Positions 5,661-63,668 of a stretch of 64,000 bases of DNA are shown one piece after another. The stretch comes from a virus. The position numbers and the translations under genes are program-made. Location of the stretch: positions 1-64,000 of IMG/VR virus record IMGVR_UViG_3300046492_000458, one strand, 5' to 3'. Positions within the stretch are counted from its first letter, which is position 1. The number at the start of each line of letters is the position of its first letter. The notes under the pieces were generated by a model, which did not search any database, was not told the DNA's origin, and saw only the letters and a list, made by a program, of their open reading frames with translations.

Positions 5661-5813
5661 ATGCCGCAGACCGCCACCCCGCCCCACGTTTCCGCCTCGC
5701 CTCGGCAGGTCGGGCCAGCGCCCGCGTGGGAGCGGCACAAGCTGTTCCAGGAGCCCGCCTACACGACGGTCCTCGAGGAGCCCGCGGAGGACGAAGAAGA
5801 CGGGGAGTGGTGA
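5661..5813 (+). CDS. Small acidic hypothetical protein, 50 aa
   Basis: ATG with GAGGAG 6 bases upstream. Pro/Thr-rich start and very acidic end (EEPAEDEEDGEW). Its last codons run into the first parS-like palindrome, so it is the last gene of the rightward operon before the partition locus. No family recognised. Confidence 0.45.
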   Translation: MPQTATPPHVSASPRQVGPAPAWERHKLFQEPAYTTVLEEPAEDEEDGEW

Positions 5814-5876
5814 CCACGTGGTCACCACCTTTGGGTCAGACAGACGACAAGGTGGTGACCACGTGGTCACCACCTT
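5807..5876. repeat. Two long perfect palindromes, putative parS centromere
   Basis: Two copies of GGTGACCACGTGGTCACC extended by further palindromic bases: the first spans 5807-5828 (22 bp) and the second 5849-5876 (28 bp, flanked by AAGGT/ACCTT). Their centres are 45 bp apart, close to four helical turns. There is no loop, so these are protein-binding DNA sites rather than terminators. They sit directly beyond the 3' end of the parB-like gene, which points to a centromere bound by that protein. Confidence 0.75.
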
Positions 5877-5900
5877 GAGACGTCGACACCATCGCGCCCG

Positions 5901-6824
5901 CTAGGCCTGCTCCTCCAGGTTCCCGGCCAGCTCTTCCAGCAGTTCACGCACCGCGCTCTCGAGTTCCTCCGCCTCCCGACGCGCCCGGGCGAGGTCGGTC
6001 TCCGCCAGGGCGCGGATCCGTTCCACCGCCTTCAGTGACTCGCTCGGCGTGAGCACCTTCGGCCCCGTCTTCTTCTCCGCCTCCTGGGTGAGCTCCTTCG
6101 GCGGGCCGTAGCCGAGGAAGTTTGCGGCATCCCGCAGCGTCTTGTCGATGACGTTGCCGTGCCGGGCCGCCTCCAGCCACGTCTCCCGCACCGCCTCGGT
6201 GCCGTGCGTCTCGAGGATCGGCACCAGAATCCGCAGGGGGCGTTCCTTCAGCTCCTGGGTGGTGATGTCCTCGAGTGCCTGCGCCACCGGCATCACTCGG
6301 ATGATGTTGTTGGCCTGGTGCTTCTTGATGCCGAAGCGGGCCTCGGCGAGCTCCCCGAACGTGTCGTGTCCGGCGACCTTGTGCAGCTCCTCCACCTTCA
6401 TCGCCCGCAGCCGGAGCCCGAGCCCGATCAGTTTCTGCTGTTCGGCCCGTTCGTGGTTGGCGCGGGCCGCGTACTGCACGGCGAGGATGCCCCGCGCATA
6501 GAACTCCAGCCGGGTGGCCGGGTCGTCGCTGTCCGGCTCGGTGAAGTCCGGCATCGGCAGGTACCCGGTCGCCGCGGTCCTGACGGCCGGCACAGATTCC
6601 GTTCCCGCCGATTCCGTCTCCGCGGGCTCCGCTACGGCCAGAACGGCGGCCGGGGGTGCGGCAGGTGCCGGGACCTGCGCCACCACAGCCGCGGGCGCGG
6701 CATGCTGCTCGCGTAGCTTGCGCTGGCTGTCCTCCCACTGCCGCAGCTGGTCCTCGCGGGACTGGTCACCGCTTCCGCCGGAGCCGACGACCGGGATGAC
6801 GGGGGCGACCTTCTTCGAGCTCAC
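5901..6824 (-). CDS. parB: ParB-like centromere-binding protein
   Basis: 307 aa, GTG start overlapping the parA stop. The N-terminal 100 residues are Ala/Pro-rich and likely disordered. Residues about 105-215 are helical and contain TFGELAEARFGIKKHQANNIIRVMPVAQALEDI, a plausible helix-turn-helix. A C-terminal coiled coil follows (KAVERIRALAETDLARARREAEELESAV). It lacks the GERR box of chromosomal ParB, so it is the plasmid-type partner of ParA. The palindromes at 5807-5876 lie 25 bases beyond its stop. Identity rests mainly on operon position after parA and on the HTH plus coiled coil. Confidence 0.7.
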   Translation of the reverse strand: MSSKKVAPVIPVVGSGGSGDQSREDQLRQWEDSQRKLREQHAAPAAVVAQVPAPAAPPAAVLAVAEPAETESAGTESVPAVRTAATGYLPMPDFTEPDSDDPATRLEFYARGILAVQYAARANHERAEQQKLIGLGLRLRAMKVEELHKVAGHDTFGELAEARFGIKKHQANNIIRVMPVAQALEDITTQELKERPLRILVPILETHGTEAVRETWLEAARHGNVIDKTLRDAANFLGYGPPKELTQEAEKKTGPKVLTPSESLKAVERIRALAETDLARARREAEELESAVRELLEELAGNLEEQA

Positions 6825-7966
6825 GCCGCCAACTCCTTGGCCAGGGCGCGCATGACCTGCGCCTGACCGGAGTCAGGGGCGTGCTCGAGCAGCGGGATCT
6901 GGTAGTCGGATGCCTCGCGGCCCTCGATGGCGTCCTTCAGGGTGGCCAGCACACCGGGTGTGGTGAGCTCGCTCCACCCGTCGTAGAAGGCGCGGGTGAC
7001 AACGCCCTTGCGGGAGTCGTAGGCGTTCACGACGAACCCGAGCTGGTCGACGACCGCTCCGGTCATCCGGCTGTGGGTGTCGATCTGCTCGTTCAGCATC
7101 TCGTAGGCGTCGAACGAGGAACGGTCCGACCAGACGGGCATCAGGATTCCGGAGTGGTCGATCAGCTCGCCCGGGCGACGCTGGACGTAGTTGATGGCGA
7201 GGTCTATCGCCAGCCCCAGGTTCGGAGGGCCGTCCAGGACGATGACGTCGTAGGAGTCCTCGACGGGGGCGAGCGCGCGGGCCAGGCAGGTGTCGCGGCC
7301 GACCTGGAGGAGCGCCAGCTTGGCGTCCATCAGGAAGGCGTCCTTGCTCGCGGGCAGAACGTGGAGACGGCCGCCGAACCGTTCGTGGGGGAGCGCGACG
7401 AGGGAGCGGGCCAGGTGCTTGTCGGCCTCGCCGAGCATGTGCGTGAGGAGACTGTCGGACCCGGTGGGAAGGCCAGGGATCTGCAGGCGGCTGGTGAGGT
7501 GCCCTTGGGGGTCGTAGTCGACGAGGAGAACGCGCAGGCCGGCCTCCGCCATGGCCTGGGCGAGTCCGGAGGCCACGAACGTCTTGCCGACACCACCCTT
7601 CTGGTTGCCCACCAGGATCCGCTTCACGGGCTGGGCGACGAGGCGCTCGTCGGGGGATGGGTGGGCCTTCAGCCACAGGGTGATGGCCTGGGCCATGCCC
7701 TGGACCTTCGTCAGACTGCGGGAATCGCACTCGCTTGCGAACCGGTGCGGGCCCCCAGCGGGAAGGAACACGCCCCACGACTTCGATCCCCTGGTCTCGA
7801 TGTCCGGGGAGCCCGGGGTGTCGTACCAGAGACTGAGGGCGGAGGCGACGGCGTCCTGCATGTTCAGCCCGTGCTCGGCTGCCCTGATGCGCAGGTCACG
7901 GCGTAGCTCAGGAGTCAGGTTAACGAGCAACTTTTCGCGCGCTTCTTCGGCGCCTGGGTGGGTCAT
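6821..7966 (-). CDS. parA: ParA partition ATPase with an N-terminal DNA-binding-like extension
   Basis: 381 aa. The deviant Walker A motif GNQKGGVGKT is at about residues 118-127, followed by LLVDYDPQGHLT (Walker A' region) and VIVLDGPPNLGLA (Walker B). This is a ParA/Soj ATPase that segregates plasmids by interacting with ParB. The first 60 residues (LTPELRRDLRIRAAEHGLNMQDAVASALSLW) look like a ribbon-helix-helix or HicB-type element and could mediate autoregulation. ATG 7966 is preferred to a TTG at 7975. A TAATTT -10-like hexamer (7972-7977 on the complement) is so close to the ATG that the message may be leaderless. Confidence 0.93.
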   Translation of the reverse strand: MTHPGAEEAREKLLVNLTPELRRDLRIRAAEHGLNMQDAVASALSLWYDTPGSPDIETRGSKSWGVFLPAGGPHRFASECDSRSLTKVQGMAQAITLWLKAHPSPDERLVAQPVKRILVGNQKGGVGKTFVASGLAQAMAEAGLRVLLVDYDPQGHLTSRLQIPGLPTGSDSLLTHMLGEADKHLARSLVALPHERFGGRLHVLPASKDAFLMDAKLALLQVGRDTCLARALAPVEDSYDVIVLDGPPNLGLAIDLAINYVQRRPGELIDHSGILMPVWSDRSSFDAYEMLNEQIDTHSRMTGAVVDQLGFVVNAYDSRKGVVTRAFYDGWSELTTPGVLATLKDAIEGREASDYQIPLLEHAPDSGQAQVMRALAKELAA

Positions 7967-8691
7967 GGCGAGCAAATTACCAGGCGATCATGTTTTGTGA
8001 GGCGCACGTGGCGCGGCCCGACCGCCTGCGCCACCCGAACGGGCCTGCCAGGCAAGGGAGATGGCTCGGGAACACTTTGCCCGCGAGGTAAAGAGCGGGG
8101 CCTCGTCATGCGCCGACCAGATTCGGTCGAATACGTGCCGGATGACGGGGTTTATCTGTCACCCACCTGAGTGATCCCTGTGCAAGCCCCTTCCCGGAGT
8201 GCATATATGCGCCTTGGGTGGGGGGTGCTGCCGGTCCCCACGGCCGGCGGCTGCACGGCCGGGGACAGCCCCTTGTGGATCGCAGCCCTCCGGGGGCGGC
8301 CCGGCCGCGCTGGGCACCCGGCCCGTACAGAAACCGGGGGAACGCATCTACCTGCGTGGGGAGTTCCCGGATTAGACTGCCGTCAACGAACGGGCATGCC
8401 CGGGAGGAACCGATCGGCCCCTCGAAGTGCCTGACCATTTGGCGCCCGCAGGGGCTGTTCCCGTATCTGGATGTAGCCTCTCCGTCACCCTCTGGCCAAA
8501 ACCGTATCGAATGCATGTCAGTAGGTGGTCAATACCCGGCAGTGTCTTACCGACCGCCTGGTATCGATGCCACAGTGACAAGTCCGAGCGTCTGGACTGG
8601 CAGCCGGACGTGCGGGGGGCCCGGGCGGAGCCGACACCGACCGGGCGTACGAGGACCCTTCCCACTTCTGCCGGAGGAGCGGAGACGCCCC
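7967..8691. other. Divergent intergenic region upstream of parA
   Basis: About 725 bases with no convincing gene. It contains the parA promoter region, a short AT-rich palindrome GCATATATGC near 8198, and an imperfect inverted repeat between about 8335 and 8371 (CCGGGGGAAC / GTTCCCGG) followed by a TAGACT -10-like hexamer near 8374. These could form a rightward regulated promoter for the gene at 8692. Nothing in it resembles an RNA gene. Confidence 0.4.
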
Positions 8692-10252: not shown

Positions 10253-10289
10253 CTTGTATTGCGTACGTAATAGAAGATGGGTTACGGTG
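10253..10289 (+). promoter_or_regulatory. Conserved promoter/operator, copy 1
   Basis: The palindrome-like TATTGCGTACGTAATA is at 10258-10273. It contains the -35 TTGCGT (10260-10265); an 18-base spacer leads to -10 TACGGT (10284-10289). A 28-base block is identical in copy 2 and, on the other strand, in copies 3 and 4, while the flanks differ, which marks it as a selected regulatory element. It fires rightward into the gene run starting at 10357. Confidence 0.85.
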
Positions 10290-17095: not shown

Positions 17096-17132
17096 TCTTG
17101 TATTGCGTACGTAATAGAAGATGCCCTAGAGT
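17096..17132 (+). promoter_or_regulatory. Conserved promoter/operator, copy 2
   Basis: TATTGCGTACGTAATA at 17101-17116 with -35 TTGCGT (17103-17108), 18-base spacer and -10 TAGAGT (17127-17132). The 28-base core is identical to copy 1. It fires rightward into the gene run beginning at 17172. Confidence 0.87.
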
Positions 17133-25822: not shown

Positions 25823-26302
25823 TCAGAGGCCGGCGACGATCAGGCGGCGGAGCATCTCTGCGCGGCTGACCCCTTCCTGCGCGGCGCGGTCGTCGACCTT
25901 CTTGATGTCGTCGGGGTCAAGGCGGGTCTCAACCTTGGGCCCCACCGTGGGCCTGCCTCCAAGGCTCGGACCGGATTCGTCGGGGGCGTCAGGGAAGTGC
26001 TCGGCCAGCACGGACTCCGCTTCGTCGCCTCCGCTCTTGATGACCCAGTCGCGGGCCTCGTCGTCGGTGAGGAAACTCCAGCGGTCGGGCCCGTTGAACT
26101 CGCGCCTGGCGTCACAGTGTTCAACCCAGCGTCCGCCCTTGGTGCGGTACAGGTCGGAGCGGGTGGTCTGGAGGCCGGACACCTTGCCGCGGTGGTTGCT
26201 GCCGTCCCAGTAGCTGTCCTCTTCCAGGATGTGGGTGGCGGCGTCCAGATCGAAGTAGCCCAGTCGGATGCCGTCGGCGTCGTGGATGGTGATGCGGTTC
26301 AT
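25823..26302 (-). CDS. Ribbon-helix-helix-like DNA-binding protein, 159 aa
   Basis: ATG overlaps the stop of the upstream gene (26302). The N-terminal 100 residues are beta-rich (ITIHDADGIRLGYFDLDAATHILEED ... WSFLTDDEARDWVIKSG). Residues 118-159 (PTVGPKVETRLDPDDIKKVDDRAAQEGVSRAEMLRRLIVAGL) match a MetJ/Arc ribbon-helix-helix: strand, helix, turn, helix. Probably a repressor co-transcribed with the HTH protein upstream; their shared operator may be the inverted repeat at 27181-27217. Confidence 0.7.
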   Translation of the reverse strand: MNRITIHDADGIRLGYFDLDAATHILEEDSYWDGSNHRGKVSGLQTTRSDLYRTKGGRWVEHCDARREFNGPDRWSFLTDDEARDWVIKSGGDEAESVLAEHFPDAPDESGPSLGGRPTVGPKVETRLDPDDIKKVDDRAAQEGVSRAEMLRRLIVAGL

Positions 26303-27150
26303 CAGTAGTCGCCCTTCAGTGAGGTGATGTAGGTGGAAGCCTCGGCCTTGGACAGTTCTTCGATTCCAGCGCGGTCGGTGGGGCCCTGGAAGAATCCGCC
26401 GCCCTCGCCGGTGCGGGCCCGCACGGTCAGGAGCTGGAGGATGTAGTCGACCTGTCGGGCGGTGGCCAGCTCGCCCTTGGTGCGGCGGGCCTCGGCGAGC
26501 TGCTCTTCGCGGGCCTCGCGGACGGTCGCTTCGGCGGCGGCGATGGCGTCCTTCTCCGCCTTCTCCGCGATGCGCTGTTCGGCGCCCGCGGCATGCTGAT
26601 TCGCCCACTGGATGAGGATGTCCACGACGGTGGTGCCGGCGGGGGTGTTCTTGCCTTCGGCGGTCCAGTCGGCTTCGATCCGCATCCGCAGGTCGCTCGG
26701 GTCGCCTTTGGTGGATCCGGTGACGACCCAGTAGGTGGTGCGGTCTATGCGGCCGGCGCGGGGCAGGGCCTTTTCGATGCGGAAGCCGTCGGGGGTGTTC
26801 TCGTAGAACTTGGCGTAGAACTTGGCGAGGTCCTCGGTGAAGAAGGGCTCGCCGTGGATGCGCAGGTCCTTGCCGGGACCGTATCCGGCAGGGGTTCCGT
26901 CGGTGCGGACGATGGAGTACGTGGTGCGGGCTTTGCCGTACTGGATGGTGCTTCCTTCTTCGACGCGGTACTTCGGCTCGTCGGTCATGCGGGCCTTCCT
27001 CTGGCCGATGGCAATGCGGGCGGCGAGGGAGGCGATGTCGATGATCCAGCGGCCGGCCTGCTTGACGGCGGCGACGGCTCCGACGCGGCACCAGGTGCGG
27101 ATGGTGGCGACGGTGACGTTGGCCTGGGTGGCTGCGGCGGTGGTGTTCAT
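26302..27150 (-). CDS. HTH protein with coiled-coil domain, 282 aa
   Basis: The first 45 residues (ATQANVTVATIRTWCRVGAVAAVKQAGRWIIDIASLAARI) are a MerR-like winged HTH. The middle is beta-rich (KYRVEEGSTIQYGKARTTYSIVR, IHGEPFFTEDLAKFYAKFYENT). Residues 195-240 (AEQRIAEKAEKDAIAAAEATVREAREEQLAEARRTKGEL) form a coiled coil. ATG with GGAGGGG upstream. It is transcribed from a strong promoter flanked by GCATGC inverted repeats, and its HTH is the natural candidate for autoregulation. Confidence 0.7.
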   Translation of the reverse strand: MNTTAAATQANVTVATIRTWCRVGAVAAVKQAGRWIIDIASLAARIAIGQRKARMTDEPKYRVEEGSTIQYGKARTTYSIVRTDGTPAGYGPGKDLRIHGEPFFTEDLAKFYAKFYENTPDGFRIEKALPRAGRIDRTTYWVVTGSTKGDPSDLRMRIEADWTAEGKNTPAGTTVVDILIQWANQHAAGAEQRIAEKAEKDAIAAAEATVREAREEQLAEARRTKGELATARQVDYILQLLTVRARTGEGGGFFQGPTDRAGIEELSKAEASTYITSLKGDY

Positions 27151-27180: not shown

Positions 27181-27221
27181 CGCATGCGTTAACTATGACA
27201 GACGGTTAACGCATGCGTCAA
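27181..27221 (-). promoter_or_regulatory. Promoter with 12-bp inverted-repeat operator
   Basis: On the minus strand -35 TTGACG (27216-27221) and -10 CATAGT (27192-27197) are 18 bases apart. CGCATGCGTTAA (27181-27192) and TTAACGCATGCG (27206-27217) form an exact 12-bp inverted repeat with 13 bases between, flanking the -10 element and touching the -35. This is a textbook repressor site. It drives the HTH/RHH pair. Confidence 0.85.
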
Positions 27222-27578: not shown

Positions 27579-27803
27579 CTATCCCCAGGTGGTGTCGAGG
27601 GGCGTGATGGTCGGCAGGTCGACGGGAAGGGTGACGGGAAGGTCGACAGGCTCGCTGCCCCACGTGGTGTCGTCCGCGGTGTCGGAGGCGCCCCAGGTGG
27701 TGTCTATGCGGGGGGCGGCGACGGTGTGGGTGATGACGGCGCCGGTCGCTGCGGCGGTGGCGAGGGTGAGGCCGGCGACGATGCAGCGGATGCGCTTGCT
27801 CAC
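27579..27803 (-). CDS. Secreted small peptide precursor with three DTTWG motifs, 74 aa
   Basis: GTG with AAGGGA 8 bases upstream. The first 30 residues (basic KR.R start, then IVAGLTLATAAATGAVITHTVAA) are a Sec signal peptide with likely cleavage after VAA. The remaining 44 residues contain DTTWG three times (PRIDTTWGAS, ADDTTWGSEP and the last five residues, DTTWG). The repeats and the exact C-terminal ending recall pheromone precursors cut into several copies. I recall similar DTTW peptides near LuxR-type genes in Streptomyces but cannot confirm. It is divergent from the LuxR-type gene at 28085. Confidence 0.7.
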   Translation of the reverse strand: MSKRIRCIVAGLTLATAAATGAVITHTVAAPRIDTTWGASDTADDTTWGSEPVDLPVTLPVDLPTITPLDTTWG

Positions 27804-28084
27804 GGGCGGGTCCCTTCTTGGGTTGTCCGGGGAACGATAACGGGGCGCCGTCCCGGTTTCCTCGTGCTCCATGTCCGCTGCGAATCCCGTTGCGTGTGGC
27901 GCGCTTTCTGGCAGTAGGCGCGTGTGGTGCGTGGGGAGGACGTGGAGTACGAGCGCCGGGGGACGCCCCGCAACTAAACTGCCGTAGAGTCTTTTCATCC
28001 TCAACCTTTGTGTGCTGCGTATCTACGCATTGCGTGTAAGCGCAGTGCAGGGCCGTATTTTTGACGGGGGATCAAGCTTTGGCC
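27804..28084. promoter_or_regulatory. Divergent control region between peptide and LuxR-type genes
   Basis: 280 bases serving both directions. Leftward, TATCGT near 27829 is a -10 candidate for the peptide gene. Rightward, overlapping inverted repeats stand at 28016-28041: TGCGTATCTACGCA (28016-28029), ACGCATTGCGT (28025-28035) and a third TGCGT half-site running into GTAA. TTGCGT at 28030-28035 has the same hexamer and 18-base spacing to a weak -10 (CGTATT) as the four conserved promoters. Confidence 0.55.
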
Positions 28085-29176
28085 ATGCATTTCGGATCGA
28101 GTGATCAGGGATTCCTGTCTGCTGATGATGTTCAGGTGTTTGGCCTGATCGCGGACGGTGGAGGGGTGCCGGAGGGGTGTGCGGATTCCGTTGCCCGGTT
28201 GGCCGACCTGGGGTTTGTGAAGATCGATTCCGGGGGTGGGGACAGACCAGTCGCCCTGAATCCCGAGGACATAAAGCAGCGCACCCTCGAGGCATTGCTC
28301 ACCGAGGCCGCCGAACGGGTCGCCAAAATGCGCACCTTGCACCTGATGTCGGAACAGCTGACCAAGGAGTTCGACCGCGGCCGCTCCCTGGCCGGCGGCG
28401 GCAGCGAGTACATCGACGACGCCGCAGTAGTGAACACCCGACTCGATGACCTGCTCAACTCCGCCCGCACGGAAATCCTCGCCGCCCAGCCCGGCGGACC
28501 CCGAACCAAGGAACAGCTGGAACGGTCAGTGGACCGCGACCGGGCCGCCCTCAACCGGGGGGTGTCCCTGTGCACCCTGTACCGGGACAGCGTCCGTCAG
28601 TCCTCCGCCATGGCCTCCCATATCGGGATGATGACCGGTCACGGGGCCGAGTACCGCACGCTGGTCGCCCCGTACGAGCGGGCCATCGTCATCGACCGCC
28701 GGCACGCGTTCGTGTCGGACTACGTGGTGGAGGGCTCACCCGCGCACGCGGCCTGGCATGTGACAGACCCTGCGGCGATCGGCTTCATCGTGGGCGCGTT
28801 CATGAACGCCTGGCAGCTCGCCCAGCTGTGGCGGGGAGAACCCAGGACGGAAGTCGCGGTCGAGTGGGACGGTGATACGCGCGGCGGGCACCCGGACGTC
28901 GACACCGTGTCAGGCCCGAGTGCCGGCTTGCGGACGACACCGTTGGAGCGGGTGATCCTGCGGGACATGGTCGACGGAATCCAGCAGAGCAGGACGGCGG
29001 CCCGGCTGGGCATCAGCCTTCGAACCCTGACGGATCACGTGTCGGTGTTGAAGACAAAGTTCGGTGCGGTGTCGCCGGCGCAGCTGGGCTGCAAGTTCGC
29101 CTTGGCGCCCGACTACCACTTCGATGACAGCGCCCCATTGGCCGACGTACCCAAGACCGGCCAGCCGACGGCCTGA
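28085..29176 (+). CDS. LuxR-type transcriptional regulator with TrmB/PLD-like sensor part
   Basis: 363 aa from ATG 28085 (a TTG at 28061 is possible). Residues 15-45 (SADDVQVFGLIADGGGVPEGCADSVARLADLGFVKI) form a winged-helix-like start as in TrmB-type proteins. A long helix follows, then an EYRTLVAPYERAIVIDRRHAFVSDYVVE region like the PLD-like ligand domain. The C-terminus (TTPLERVILRDMVDGIQQSRTAARLGISLRTLTDHVSVLKTKFG, about 284-330) is a LuxR/NarL helix-turn-helix. Streptomyces has many such orphan regulators. Next to a secreted peptide and central to four outward promoters, it is the best candidate for a master switch. Confidence 0.8.
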   Translation: MHFGSSDQGFLSADDVQVFGLIADGGGVPEGCADSVARLADLGFVKIDSGGGDRPVALNPEDIKQRTLEALLTEAAERVAKMRTLHLMSEQLTKEFDRGRSLAGGGSEYIDDAAVVNTRLDDLLNSARTEILAAQPGGPRTKEQLERSVDRDRAALNRGVSLCTLYRDSVRQSSAMASHIGMMTGHGAEYRTLVAPYERAIVIDRRHAFVSDYVVEGSPAHAAWHVTDPAAIGFIVGAFMNAWQLAQLWRGEPRTEVAVEWDGDTRGGHPDVDTVSGPSAGLRTTPLERVILRDMVDGIQQSRTAARLGISLRTLTDHVSVLKTKFGAVSPAQLGCKFALAPDYHFDDSAPLADVPKTGQPTA

Positions 29177-34841: not shown

Positions 34842-34877
34842 AGTCTAGCCATCTTCTATTACGTACGCAATACAAGA
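34842..34877 (-). promoter_or_regulatory. Conserved promoter/operator, copy 3
   Basis: On the minus strand TATTGCGTACGTAATA (34857-34872) contains -35 TTGCGT (34865-34870) and lies 17 bases from -10 TAGACT (34842-34847). The 28-base core is identical to the other three copies. It fires leftward into the run 34810 to about 29181. Confidence 0.87.
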
Positions 34878-39415: not shown

Positions 39416-39452
39416 ACACTAGCCCATCTTCTATTACGTACGCAATACAAGA
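39416..39452 (-). promoter_or_regulatory. Conserved promoter/operator, copy 4
   Basis: On the minus strand TATTGCGTACGTAATA (39432-39447) contains -35 TTGCGT (39440-39445), followed after 18 bases by -10 TAGTGT (39416-39421). The core matches the other copies exactly. It starts the leftward run 39280 to about 35349 and lies just after the replication gene. Confidence 0.87.
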
Positions 39453-41303: not shown

Positions 41304-42032
41304 TTACTCGTCGTCCGCTTGCCATAGGCCGACGGAATAGATGTCCTCCCAGTACTCCAACGGCCCATCCTCGTCGTGGAACACGTTCACCAGGACGAGA
41401 ACAGGTACGGGAACGTCCTCAGGTACTCGGACTTCCAGAAGGTCCAGCTCGTTCTGGGAGGCGAATCGAGCGGTTCGCCGCTCCGGCGACTTGGTGACCG
41501 TGCGCCCGGTCCGCTCCGTGTAGATCTCCTGCCAGAACCGGCCCATCGGCTCGGTGCTCAGCAGCTCCGGGACAGCGCTCAGCGCCCGGACATGGATGCA
41601 GGACAAGGCTGCGATCGTAGGAGTGTTGTCCCGCACGAATACCCGGGTGCGCAGCACGATCTCGTCGTGCAGATCGATCTCGAGCGCGTCCGCGACTGCC
41701 GCGTCTGCTGACCGGAGAGCTGCGGTGTGCTTGATGGACTTCTCCTTGTAGCCGTACGGGTCACCCGTGCGGCCAATCCTCTTCAGGCGTGCGGCGGCCG
41801 TCGTGGCGACGCGGGGGCGTTCGGCCACCACCGTGCCGACGCCGGGCTTGGCCACGGTCAAGCGTTCTGCCTTCAGGAGTTGGAACGCCCGGTTCGCCGT
41901 GGCGATCGCGACATCGAACTCCTCGCAGACCCTGTTCATGGACGGCATCTTGTCGCCAGGGGTGAGCGTGCCGTCCGCGATGAGCCGTCGGTAGTGGGTG
42001 GCGATCTCGGCATATCCAGCCTTGCCGCTCAT
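41304..42032 (-). CDS. GntR/HutC-family repressor (KorSA/TraR-like)
   Basis: 242 aa. Residues 1-70 (YAEIATHYRRLIADGTLTPGDKMPSMNRVCEEFDVAIATANRAFQLLKAERLTVAKPGVGTVV) are a GntR winged helix; residues 85-240 form the HutC/UTRA ligand-binding domain (IVLRTRVFVRDNTPTIAALSCIHV ... GRFWQEIYTERTGRTVTKSPERRTARFASQNELDLLEV). In Streptomyces conjugative elements such proteins (KorSA, TraR, KorA) repress transfer and replication genes. Its own promoter has a tight inverted repeat, suggesting autoregulation. Confidence 0.88.
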   Translation of the reverse strand: MSGKAGYAEIATHYRRLIADGTLTPGDKMPSMNRVCEEFDVAIATANRAFQLLKAERLTVAKPGVGTVVAERPRVATTAAARLKRIGRTGDPYGYKEKSIKHTAALRSADAAVADALEIDLHDEIVLRTRVFVRDNTPTIAALSCIHVRALSAVPELLSTEPMGRFWQEIYTERTGRTVTKSPERRTARFASQNELDLLEVRVPEDVPVPVLVLVNVFHDEDGPLEYWEDIYSVGLWQADDE

Positions 42033-60177: not shown

Positions 60178-60643
60178 CGGCGGTGCGCGTGCACGCTCCG
60201 GTCCTGCCCCTGACCCGACTGCGCTGCGGCGTGACCGGGATGCCGGCGAGTGGACGATCCTGCCTGCGGAGGGCCGACAGGGCGCAACGCCCGAGTGGCC
60301 GCTGACCGAGCAGACGATCCGTGAAGCCGACCTGTGGGGCGCCTTGTGGCGGAAGCCACAGGCGATCATGTGGGAGCGGTATGGCCAGGAGTTCGAGGTG
60401 GCGCTGTACGTGCGCCGCTTCTCCGAGGCCGAGTTGATGGACTCCCGGGTGAATCTGTCGACGCTAATCCGGCAGATGGCGGACTCGCTGGGTCTGACGA
60501 CGCCGGGGATGCGGGCGAACCGGTGGCGGATCGCGGTCGATGAGGTCGCGGAGCGCCGTGAGGGGGCCGGGAAGCAGCAGCCGGCCACGCGGCGCGCGGC
60601 TCGGGATCGTTTCAAGGTCGTGCCCGGTGACGGGGGCGAGTGA
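60170..60643 (+). CDS. Phage terminase small subunit
   Basis: 157 aa, start overlapping the previous gene. SGGARARSGPAPDPTALRRDRDAGEWTILPAEGRQGATPEWPLTEQTIREADLWGALWRKPQAIMWERYGQEFEVALYVRRFSEAELMDSRVNLSTLIRQMADSLGLTTPGMRANRWRI is the usual Streptomyces phage small-terminase pattern. It recognises the packaging site and hands DNA to the large subunit, whose gene overlaps its end. Confidence 0.85.
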   Translation: MPSGGARARSGPAPDPTALRRDRDAGEWTILPAEGRQGATPEWPLTEQTIREADLWGALWRKPQAIMWERYGQEFEVALYVRRFSEAELMDSRVNLSTLIRQMADSLGLTTPGMRANRWRIAVDEVAERREGAGKQQPATRRAARDRFKVVPGDGGE

Positions 60644-62264
60644 GCAGGTCGTCCAGTGGCCCACGCTCGGCTTTCTGATCGCGGACTGGGTTGAGGCGCA
60701 CTGCGTCATCCCGGACGGGTTCTCTGCTGGTGAGCCGTATGTTCTGACGGACGAGATGCTGTGGTTCTTCCTGAACCACTACCGGGTGAAGCCCGGGGCG
60801 ACGCGCGAGCGCTCGATGTTGTCGCCAGCGTCGGCGTTCCATTTCCGGCGTAGCCAGCTGGTCCGTCCGCAGAAGTGGGGCAAGGGACCGTTGACTGCCG
60901 CGCAGGTCTGCGTGGAGGGTGTCGGGCCTGCCGTGTTCGCCGGTTGGGCGGCTGGCGGCGAGGTCTACGACTGCCGGGTTCACGGCTGCGGCTGTGGCTG
61001 GGTGTTCGAGTACGAGCCGGGCGATCCGATGGGTATGCCGTGGCCGACGCCGCTGATTCAGATCACGGCGTTCTCGGAGGAGCAGACCGACAACATTTAC
61101 GGCGCCCTCAGGCCGATGATCGACAAGGGTCCGTTGTCGGAGCTGATTCCGAAGACGGGCGAGGAGTTCATCCGCCTTCCGGGTGGCGGCCGCGTCGACA
61201 CGGTGACGTCGTCGGCCCAGTCTCGCCTCGGCCAGCGCGTGACGTTCGTGCCTCAGGACGAGACTGGCATCTGGACGACTGAGAACAAGATGCAGAAGGT
61301 TGCCGATACGCAGCGGCGTGGCCTGGCGGGTATGGGTGGCCGGTCGACGGAGACGACGAACGGCTGGGACCCGTCGGAGAACAGCGTGGCGCAGCGGTCG
61401 TTCGAGGCGAAGGTCCAGGACATCTTCCGGGACTTTCGCAAGGCGCCGGCCGATCTGAACTACGCCAAGAAGACGGACCGTCGGAAGATCCATAAGGCGG
61501 TGTACGGCGACTCCTGGTGGGTCGACCTCGACGCGATCGAGGCCGAGGCCGCGGAGTTGCTGGAGCGTGACCAGGCGCAGGCGGAGCGGTTCTTCGGGAA
61601 CCGGATCACGGCCGGTACCGGTACATGGCTGGCCCGGGATCGTTGGGATCTGCGGGCGGTACCCCGTGAAGTCCCGGACGGTACGCCTGTTGTCCTCGGC
61701 TTCGACGGCTCGGACATCGACGACTGGACCGGCATCCGCGCCGAGACGCTGGACGGCTATCAGTTCACACCGGTGTACAGCTCGCTGGAACTGCCGACTA
61801 TCTGGGATCCAGCCGAGTGGGGCGGTCAGACGCCGCGGCTTGAGGTAGATGCGGCGGTGGATGAACTGATGCGTCGCTATCGGGTGGTGCGCATGTACTG
61901 CGATCCGCCGTACTGGCCAACCGAGGTCGATACCTGGGCGGAGCGGTACGGCGAGAAGCGCGTGGTCCGCTGGTACACGCACCGGGATGTTCAGACGCAT
62001 GCGGCCTGCGAGCGCCTGTTGACGGACGTGACAAAGGCCGACAGCGGATTCACGCACGACGGTTGCGAAGACACATCGGCGCACGTGGGGCACGCGCGGA
62101 GGGCGGCCCGCACCGCTGGCCGCTACGTGCTCCGGAAGGCCGCGCCCCATCAAAAGATCGACATGGCGATGGTGTCCATCCTCGCCCACGAGGCGGCGGG
62201 CGACGCAATCGCAGCTGGCCAGGCCCGGCCGAAGGTTTCCCGGAAGACGACTGTGATGCGCTGA
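60627..62264 (+). CDS. Phage terminase large subunit
   Basis: 545 aa from GTG 60627, overlapping the small subunit by 17 bases. RSQLVRPQKWGKGPLTAAQV (about 76-95) is the Walker A region, VTFVPQDETGIWTTENKMQKV (about 205-225) the Walker B and coupling region, and VVLGFDGSDIDDWTGI (about 354-370) with MYCDPPYW the nuclease centre. ATP-driven packaging and cutting of phage DNA is the known role. It starts the head-gene order terminase, portal, minor head. Confidence 0.94.
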   Translation: MTGASEQVVQWPTLGFLIADWVEAHCVIPDGFSAGEPYVLTDEMLWFFLNHYRVKPGATRERSMLSPASAFHFRRSQLVRPQKWGKGPLTAAQVCVEGVGPAVFAGWAAGGEVYDCRVHGCGCGWVFEYEPGDPMGMPWPTPLIQITAFSEEQTDNIYGALRPMIDKGPLSELIPKTGEEFIRLPGGGRVDTVTSSAQSRLGQRVTFVPQDETGIWTTENKMQKVADTQRRGLAGMGGRSTETTNGWDPSENSVAQRSFEAKVQDIFRDFRKAPADLNYAKKTDRRKIHKAVYGDSWWVDLDAIEAEAAELLERDQAQAERFFGNRITAGTGTWLARDRWDLRAVPREVPDGTPVVLGFDGSDIDDWTGIRAETLDGYQFTPVYSSLELPTIWDPAEWGGQTPRLEVDAAVDELMRRYRVVRMYCDPPYWPTEVDTWAERYGEKRVVRWYTHRDVQTHAACERLLTDVTKADSGFTHDGCEDTSAHVGHARRAARTAGRYVLRKAAPHQKIDMAMVSILAHEAAGDAIAAGQARPKVSRKTTVMR

Positions 62265-62282: not shown

Positions 62283-63668
62283 GTGGCCCTCGACCTCGAG
62301 CCGGATGCCTGGCTGAAGCGGCTGATTGCGGCGCACGACAACGACCTGCCGCAGCTGCGGTTGATGGACAGCTACTACGAGGGCACGCAGCCTCTGTCGT
62401 ATCTGGCGCCGGAGATCCAGTCGGAGCTGTCGGACCGGATGCGGCAGCTGGTCATCAACTGGCCGCAGCTGGTCGTCGATGCGCTGGATGAGCGGCTGGA
62501 CGTCGAGGGTTTCCGGTACGCGGACTCGGAGACGACGGCCGAGGATCTGTGGTCGGTGTGGCAGGCCTCCGACATGGACGAGGGCAGTCAGCAGGCCCAC
62601 GTTGACGCGCTGGCGCTGAAGCGCTCCTATGTGATCATCGGTGCGAACGAGACCGACGAGTCGACGCCGATCATCACGGCCGAGTCCGCGCTGGAAGTCT
62701 TCGCCGAGCGGGATCCGCGGACGCGTCAGGTGATGGCGGCGATCAAGCGGTGGGATGAGCCCGCGGCGGCCGGGTCCGCTCCGGTGAAGTGGGCGACGCT
62801 GTATCTACCGAAGAAGCGGTGCACGTTCGAGCAGCAGAAGGGCGTCTGGGTCGAAGTCGACCGGGACGAGCACAACGTGGGCCAGGTGCTGGTGGTACCG
62901 CTGGCGAACCGGCCGCGGCTTCGGCATCTGGACGGCACGTCTGAGCTGCGTTCGGTGATTCCGATCTCGGACGCGGCATGCAAGATCGCCTCGGACATGA
63001 TGGTGTCTGCGGAGTATCACGCGATGCCGCGCCGGTGGGCGACGGGCATGTCCCGGGATGATTTCGCCGACGAGAACGGGCAGCCGCTCGGCGCAATGTC
63101 GTCACTGGCGGGCCGTCTGTGGGTGAACGAGGGCGAGAGCGTCAAGTTCGGCCAGTTCCCCGAGGCGCAGCTCTCGAACTTCCACGAGACGATCAACGTT
63201 CTTGCCCGGCTGGTGGCCGCCCTGACAGGCCTGCCTCCCGCGTTCCTCGGCCTGGCCACCGACCAGCCGCCGTCGGCGGATGCGATCCGTGCGTCGGAGG
63301 CCCGCCTGGTGAAGCGTGCGGAACGCAGGCAGCGGGCGTTCGGTGAGGCGTGGGAGAGGGTGATGAGGCTCGTTCTGCTCGTGCGGGACGGCGACTTGGA
63401 CCCGCGGACCCGCAAGCTGGAGACGGTCTGGCGGGACCCGGCGACGCCGACCTACGCCCAGAAGGCGGACGCGGTCGTCAAGCTGCACACCAGCGGCATT
63501 CTGCCGACGGAGCAGGCCTGGGAGGACCTCGGCTACTCGGCGGTGCAGCGGGACCGGATGCGGGGCATGCAGGATGAAGCCCTGACCCGTATGACCGCGA
63601 TGGATCTACAGCAGCTGTCTACGGCCCAGCCGGAGCCGCAGCCCTTCGAGGCCCCTCCGGGAGGCTGA
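62283..63668 (+). CDS. Phage portal protein (SPP1 gp6-like)
   Basis: 461 aa, GTG start. RLIAAHDNDLPQLRLMDSYYEGTQPLSYLAPEIQSELSDRMRQLVINWPQLVVDALDERLDVEGFRYAD is the SPP1-gp6 family opening; the C-terminus has LARLVAALTGLPPAFLGLATDQPPSADAIRASEARLVKRAERRQRAFGEAWERVMRLVLLVRDG, typical of portals. It forms the dodecamer through which DNA enters the capsid, and it follows terminase as expected for a siphovirus. Confidence 0.94.
   Translation: MALDLEPDAWLKRLIAAHDNDLPQLRLMDSYYEGTQPLSYLAPEIQSELSDRMRQLVINWPQLVVDALDERLDVEGFRYADSETTAEDLWSVWQASDMDEGSQQAHVDALALKRSYVIIGANETDESTPIITAESALEVFAERDPRTRQVMAAIKRWDEPAAAGSAPVKWATLYLPKKRCTFEQQKGVWVEVDRDEHNVGQVLVVPLANRPRLRHLDGTSELRSVIPISDAACKIASDMMVSAEYHAMPRRWATGMSRDDFADENGQPLGAMSSLAGRLWVNEGESVKFGQFPEAQLSNFHETINVLARLVAALTGLPPAFLGLATDQPPSADAIRASEARLVKRAERRQRAFGEAWERVMRLVLLVRDGDLDPRTRKLETVWRDPATPTYAQKADAVVKLHTSGILPTEQAWEDLGYSAVQRDRMRGMQDEALTRMTAMDLQQLSTAQPEPQPFEAPPGG

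Follow-up and report, generated by a model that had tools for sequence, protein, structure and literature searches.

Does a small exported peptide with a repeated five-residue motif, encoded divergently from a gene for a DNA-binding protein, form a signalling pair with that protein, and which promoters would such a pair control? The question is raised by a locus in a 64,000-nucleotide stretch of DNA (hereafter the window), which represents 64 of the 65.6 kb of an IMG/VR record and belongs to a Streptomyces phage-plasmid contig. We favor, with a probability of about 0.75, a peptide pheromone with a receptor in the cytosol, a self-contained pair with local autoregulation that resembles RRNPP/arbitrium systems and has a receptor not homologous to theirs.

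The window was assigned to a phage-plasmid because its nearest relatives are mostly Streptomyces plasmids and contigs (85-97 kb) and because it combines replication-initiation-like proteins with the following genes:

6821-7975: ParA-like partition protein
60540-62264: terminase
62283-63668: portal protein

A DNA methyltransferase and a polymerase-exonuclease-like protein are also encoded. Three near-identical inverted-repeat iterons (AAGGTGGTGACCACGTGGTCACCACC, 5807-5880), which are present in the relative W05 as well, lie close to the ParA gene and are probably the partition site. A perfect 12-bp inverted repeat (GCATGCGTTAAC/GTTAACGCATGC, 27182-27216), which precedes the leftward HTH_17-like gene (26302-27150), is a probable operator. 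The repeated palindrome GTATACCGCGGTATAC was observed at three or more sites per element in W01 (~38-40 kb), G311 (~8.5-10.2 kb), and G323 (~43-44.5 kb). An identity of pSAM1 of S. ambofaciens with phage Samy was rejected, as the Samy paper treats the two as different.

The precursor and the regulator

The two genes and the parts of the regulator, the latter taken from its AlphaFold2 model, are as follows:

27579..27803, minus strand: peptide precursor, predicted to be exported, 74 amino acids with three copies of DTTWG (translation and conservation in about 30 phage-plasmid homologues)
28085..29176, plus strand: regulator with a TrmB-like sensor and a LuxR-type HTH (AlphaFold2, Foldseek, HMM comparison to the PDB)
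Regulator, amino acids 13-57: wHTH
Regulator, amino acids 60-104: long helix
Regulator, amino acids 107-250: alpha/beta PLD/TrmB-like sensor
Regulator, amino acids 286-345: LuxR-type HTH

The translation (MSKRIRCIVAGLTLATAAATGAVITHTVAAPRIDTTWGASDTADDTTWGSEPVDLPVTLPVDLPTITPLDTTWG) confirmed the 74-residue precursor of the preliminary description, including the third copy of DTTWG as the last five residues. The Sec signal proposed there is retained as a prediction: the N-terminus displays basic residues, a hydrophobic stretch, and an AxA-like site, and was classified as Sec-like by our own hydropathy rule. Translation starts from a GTG at 27803, which is preceded by the ribosome-binding-like sequence GAAGGG. 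No family in Pfam or NCBIfam was found above the cut-off. Compared with the window, the relative L045 (75% identity) has a diverged leader and diverged linkers (29 non-synonymous codons) and one motif copy fewer, yet the two DTTWG copies that it retains are unchanged.

For the regulator, the ATG at 28085 is the more likely start, and a TTG at 28061 is a possible earlier one. Searches against Pfam, NCBIfam, and PHROGs yielded no family above the cut-off; the single-sequence Pfam scores for GerE (E = 3.8e-4) and TrmB (E = 0.009; 15.8 bits for PF11495 vs. a gathering cut-off of 22.2) were below the thresholds. The family profile, compared with the PDB, matched the NarL/GerE HTH (8.7e-11) and TrmBL2 (3.6e-10). 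The AlphaFold2 model was built from an alignment of 83 sequences (A4) and reached a mean pLDDT of 87.9 and a pTM of 0.61. Using its first three parts, Foldseek retrieved TrmBL2 (E 1.5e-10) and TrmB (3.8e-9), and the sensor matched the phospholipase-D fold (Nuc, 1byr). As modeled, the regulator would possess the wHTH, the long helix, and the PLD-fold effector domain that characterize the TrmB family, and the earlier suggestion of a TrmB/PLD-like sensor half combined with a LuxR HTH was borne out by AlphaFold2, Foldseek, and the HMM comparison to the PDB. The sequence FxRxIIxDR, conserved among the regulators of A4, resembles in our reading the PLD motif HxKx4D minus its histidine, which fits a role in binding and not in catalysis. 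A membrane segment was not evident in the model.

Co-occurrence of the genes and variation of the motif

Homologous regulators were collected from plasmids, a phage, viral contigs, and whole genomes. A viral scan with the single regulator protein gave no matches, whereas the alignment as a query did. At least one homologue (E ≤ 1e-30) was present in 58 of 61 Streptomyces genomes, and at E ≤ 1e-25 homologues were detected in 118 of 247 genomes of the class. Peptide genes were defined as open reading frames of 35-110 amino acids that lie no more than 800 bp from the regulator gene, have a basic-hydrophobic N-terminus, and carry [DE]xxW close to the C-terminus or xxxW more than once. As the regulators are related and therefore non-independent samples, the results of this uniform scan are counts rather than probabilities: a divergent upstream W-motif peptide with predicted export was found for 76 of 155 distinct regulators and for 35 of 43 in the clade closest to the window (score ≥300 bits). 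On the same strand upstream, such a peptide was found for none of the 155, downstream on the opposite strand for four, and downstream on the same strand for two. Since the rule was devised after the first cases were known, the weight rests not on the rule, but on 210 control genes taken from twenty 20-kb Streptomyces segments, none of which had a divergent upstream W-motif peptide and two of which had one in any position.

The scan found no peptide gene for about half of the 155 regulators, mostly distant ones, nor for the close relatives L025, L027, L028, and L090. On two Streptomyces linear plasmids that encode close relatives of the regulator (L013:2474, L014:2465), a divergent possible open reading frame of 34-35 amino acids ends in RRDSAWGC and is devoid of a Sec signal. 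In other actinobacterial genomes (L200-L208), the peptide gene (DTSWG, DSSWG) is located downstream in convergent orientation, which indicates that the link between the two genes outlives their arrangement. The isolated temperate phage Chymera carries the pair beside an integrase and an immunity repressor, and its peptide contains DPGWG twice. A protease or importer dedicated to the pair was not seen in the adjoining genes. Co-occurrence and motif conservation in actinobacterial genomes, a check that the preliminary description itself had suggested, strongly support, at the level of sequence, the signalling pair put forward there, and the divergent arrangement noted there extends well beyond the window.

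Some Streptomyces chromosomes contain clusters of three to five adjacent regulator paralogues (G001:C7:229012-233857, G018:C1:4728984-4732253, G183:C1:2007074-2010928); in G001 and G183, an end member has a peptide gene. Such clusters are possibly a hub of peptide sensing.

The motif differs between loci. Phage-plasmids and other plasmids encode DTTWG, DTAWG, DTGWG, DSTWG, DTWWG, DTHWG, or DSAWG, and an Actinacidiphila plasmid DIQWG (three to four copies). Chromosomal motifs include EPSWE (four copies), DSGWT (four to five), DTGWT (three), SIGWD (four), and DSVWP (two). Genome G001 combines a phage-plasmid peptide with DTTWG and chromosomal pairs with DPIWG and DTVWD. Within precursors, the identity of the three residues preceding the tryptophan was 0.88, compared with a mean of 0.45 and a maximum of 0.51 upon random dealing (2000 shuffles), and all copies were identical in xxxW in 45 of 57 multi-copy precursors. 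The final motif required 37 changes when mapped onto the receptor tree vs. at least 49 in 200 shuffles (phage-plasmid clade: 11 vs. at least 14). The motif type tracks the receptor tree and, judged from these comparisons, behaves like a specificity word. With its own motif, each element or chromosomal paralogue would have a private channel.

Control DNA of the pair and the four shared promoters

The region between the two genes contains the following elements:

27834..27839, minus strand: TATCGT, presumed −10 box of the peptide gene (TANNNT conserved in most relatives)
27842..27865, plus strand: site A, GGGGCGCCGTCCCGGTTTCCTCGT, operator-like, from phylogenetic footprinting, 2 bp from the presumed −10 box of the peptide gene
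27945..27969, minus strand: site B, GGGGCGTCCCCCGGCGCTCGTACTC, operator-like, nearly invariant in 26 loci
27985..27990, plus strand: TAGAGT, presumed −10 box of the regulator gene (TANNNT conserved in nearly all relatives, with constant spacing to site B)
28016..28045, plus strand: site C, two adjacent 14-bp dyads, TGCGTATCTACGCA / TTGCGTGTAAGCGCA, with co-changing halves and copies

Sites A and B form an inverted pair in most close loci, and site B faces site A just upstream of the presumed −10 box of the regulator gene. In the phage-plasmid clade, both are facing copies of GGGGCG(T/C)C..CCCGG..CTCGT, each beside a conserved TANNNT. The dyads of site C have the form TGCG-N6-CGCA, and both halves and both copies change together between loci; variants are TGCGGGTTTCCGCA, present twice in L032, and TGCTCACTTGTGCA / TGCGCACACGTGCA in L054. 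The core GCANTGC was found in 21 of 30 cases in the phage-plasmid clade (shuffled mean 1.7) and in 10 of 47 among the nearest other paralogues (mean 2.5), an only moderate enrichment, so that no claim is made for the whole family. In nine elements, the profiles of B and C each identified one strong location per element, always between peptide and regulator, which makes local autoregulation the best-supported action: the regulator is predicted to act on its own promoter and on that of the peptide gene. A second close match to site A was not detected in the window.

The preliminary description had also placed the pair between two rightward and two leftward operons with common promoters and had suggested that the pair controls these. 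These promoters are real; they and a further regulator gene are located at:

10253-10279, plus strand: 27-bp promoter/operator element, CTTGTATTGCGTACGTAATAGAAGATG
17097-17123, plus strand: identical element
34850-34876, minus strand: identical element
39425-39451, minus strand: identical element
41304-42032, minus strand: GntR/UTRA regulator, candidate regulator of the four shared promoters

An arbitrium-like lysis-lysogeny switch that acts directly on these four shared early promoters would agree with their identity, with the position of the pair amid convergent operons in the middle of the element, and with its proximity to integrase and repressor in the temperate Chymera. The four promoters, however, have a different operator (of the ATTGCGTACGTAAT type in the window, ATTGCGCGCGTAAT in W06), which bears no resemblance to sites A, B, and C and changes from element to element without relation to them, and the GntR/UTRA protein is another candidate for the control of these promoters. 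W05 (GGCATTGCAATGCC) and some other relatives carry repeats of another type, which contain ATTGC. Given the restriction of B and C to the intergenic region in the nine elements, control of the four operons by the pair is unsupported, and the peptide receptor as their direct controller was rejected on the motif evidence. Such a switch therefore appears unlikely; because it concerns the output, it is compatible with a pheromone function, and the confidences in the two need not add up to 1.

Mechanism and relation to known systems

The exported peptide might itself be an effector, for example, a small bacteriocin, a surface or matrix peptide, or a superinfection blocker, with a regulator that controls its expression and senses another ligand such as a sugar. 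TrmB-type sensors, such as that of archaeal TrmB, bind sugars; the sugar-binding structure 2f5t is among the Foldseek matches of the regulator, and adjacency together with local operators fits a self-regulated effector gene. A fixed sugar sensor, however, fails to explain why the copies of four or five residues are homogenized within a precursor and change with the receptor clade. DTTWG is kept even in the L045 precursor, which is down to two copies, and no immunity-like gene lies alongside the peptide gene, so we consider an effector function improbable. It is very improbable that the precursor is a RiPP with a tailored product instead of linear DTTWG as the signal. Several core copies in which Asp and Trp are conserved do recall multi-core RiPP precursors, but among the annotated neighbors in six phage-plasmid loci, most of which are hypothetical proteins and the others regulators or a nuclease-domain gene, no tailoring enzyme was recognizable. 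The precursors have Sec-like signals, and NCBIfam gave no family.

For the preferred peptide pheromone with a cytosolic receptor, the following course is proposed. The phage-plasmid would produce the multi-copy precursor, which its predicted signal would direct to the Sec route. Extracellular trimming would release short peptides around DTTWG, and these would re-enter cells, plausibly via a BldK/Opp-like ABC permease for oligopeptides. Genetics, fold, and co-variation suggest that the peptide binds the neighboring regulator in its PLD-fold sensor half. The regulator may then act on both divergent promoters through sites A, B, and C, resulting in a local feedback switch. An output to lysogeny, copy number, or induction, through changes in the amount or state of the regulator or through unmapped targets, is speculative, as is the sensing of lysogen density, which the preliminary description proposed by analogy with arbitrium.

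Exported-peptide signalling with cytosolic receptors is known mainly from Firmicutes, and Streptomyces is known for gamma-butyrolactones. The pair probably, though less surely than the function proposed for the locus itself, exemplifies an actinobacteria-wide, undescribed group of linear D-x-x-W-G-type pheromones with TrmB/PLD-fold and LuxR-HTH receptors unrelated to RRNPP, of which a Streptomyces genome has several copies and which phages and phage-plasmids have captured as private channels. The novelty is provisional, as the literature search covered open-access papers only; no description of the pair was found among them, and DTTWG and related motifs matched only an unrelated kiwifruit-allergen paper and abbreviations. 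Genus-wide peptide-receptor pairs with readable motifs would make communication in antibiotic producers and phages testable with synthetic five-residue peptides.

To our knowledge, no gene has been named for the oligopeptide signal that Streptomyces imports through BldK. The import of this signal by the BldK ABC permease has been reported (PMC11303876), and DTTWG-type peptides may be likened to it in a single respect, the proposed uptake by a permease. With archaeal TrmB and TrmBL2, the modeled regulator would share the winged helix, the long helix, and the PLD-fold sensor; it differs in its additional C-terminal LuxR-type HTH, its link to exported peptides, and its bacterial origin. The C-terminal HTH connects it to the LuxR/GerE family (PDB matches NarL and GerE), whereas neither an acyl-homoserine-lactone (autoinducer)-binding nor a receiver domain was found in it by Pfam.

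The closest likeness in organization is to RRNPP/arbitrium (AimP-AimR-AimX), in which the gene of an exported pro-peptide adjoins that of a soluble DNA-binding receptor, the genes occur on mobile elements and chromosomes, and the short linear motif differs between systems. Here, adjacency is conserved and export is predicted. Membership in the arbitrium family is excluded, because the regulator has no TPR/AimR domain (Pfam, AlphaFold) and the peptide is not of the AimP type; no AimX-like target is known for the pair. In place of the TPR receptors of Firmicutes and their phages, Actinobacteria would use a TrmB/PLD-fold receptor with a LuxR HTH, encoded divergently or convergently to a multi-copy precursor. 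Phage-encoded peptide signalling would then have a second, independent origin alongside arbitrium.
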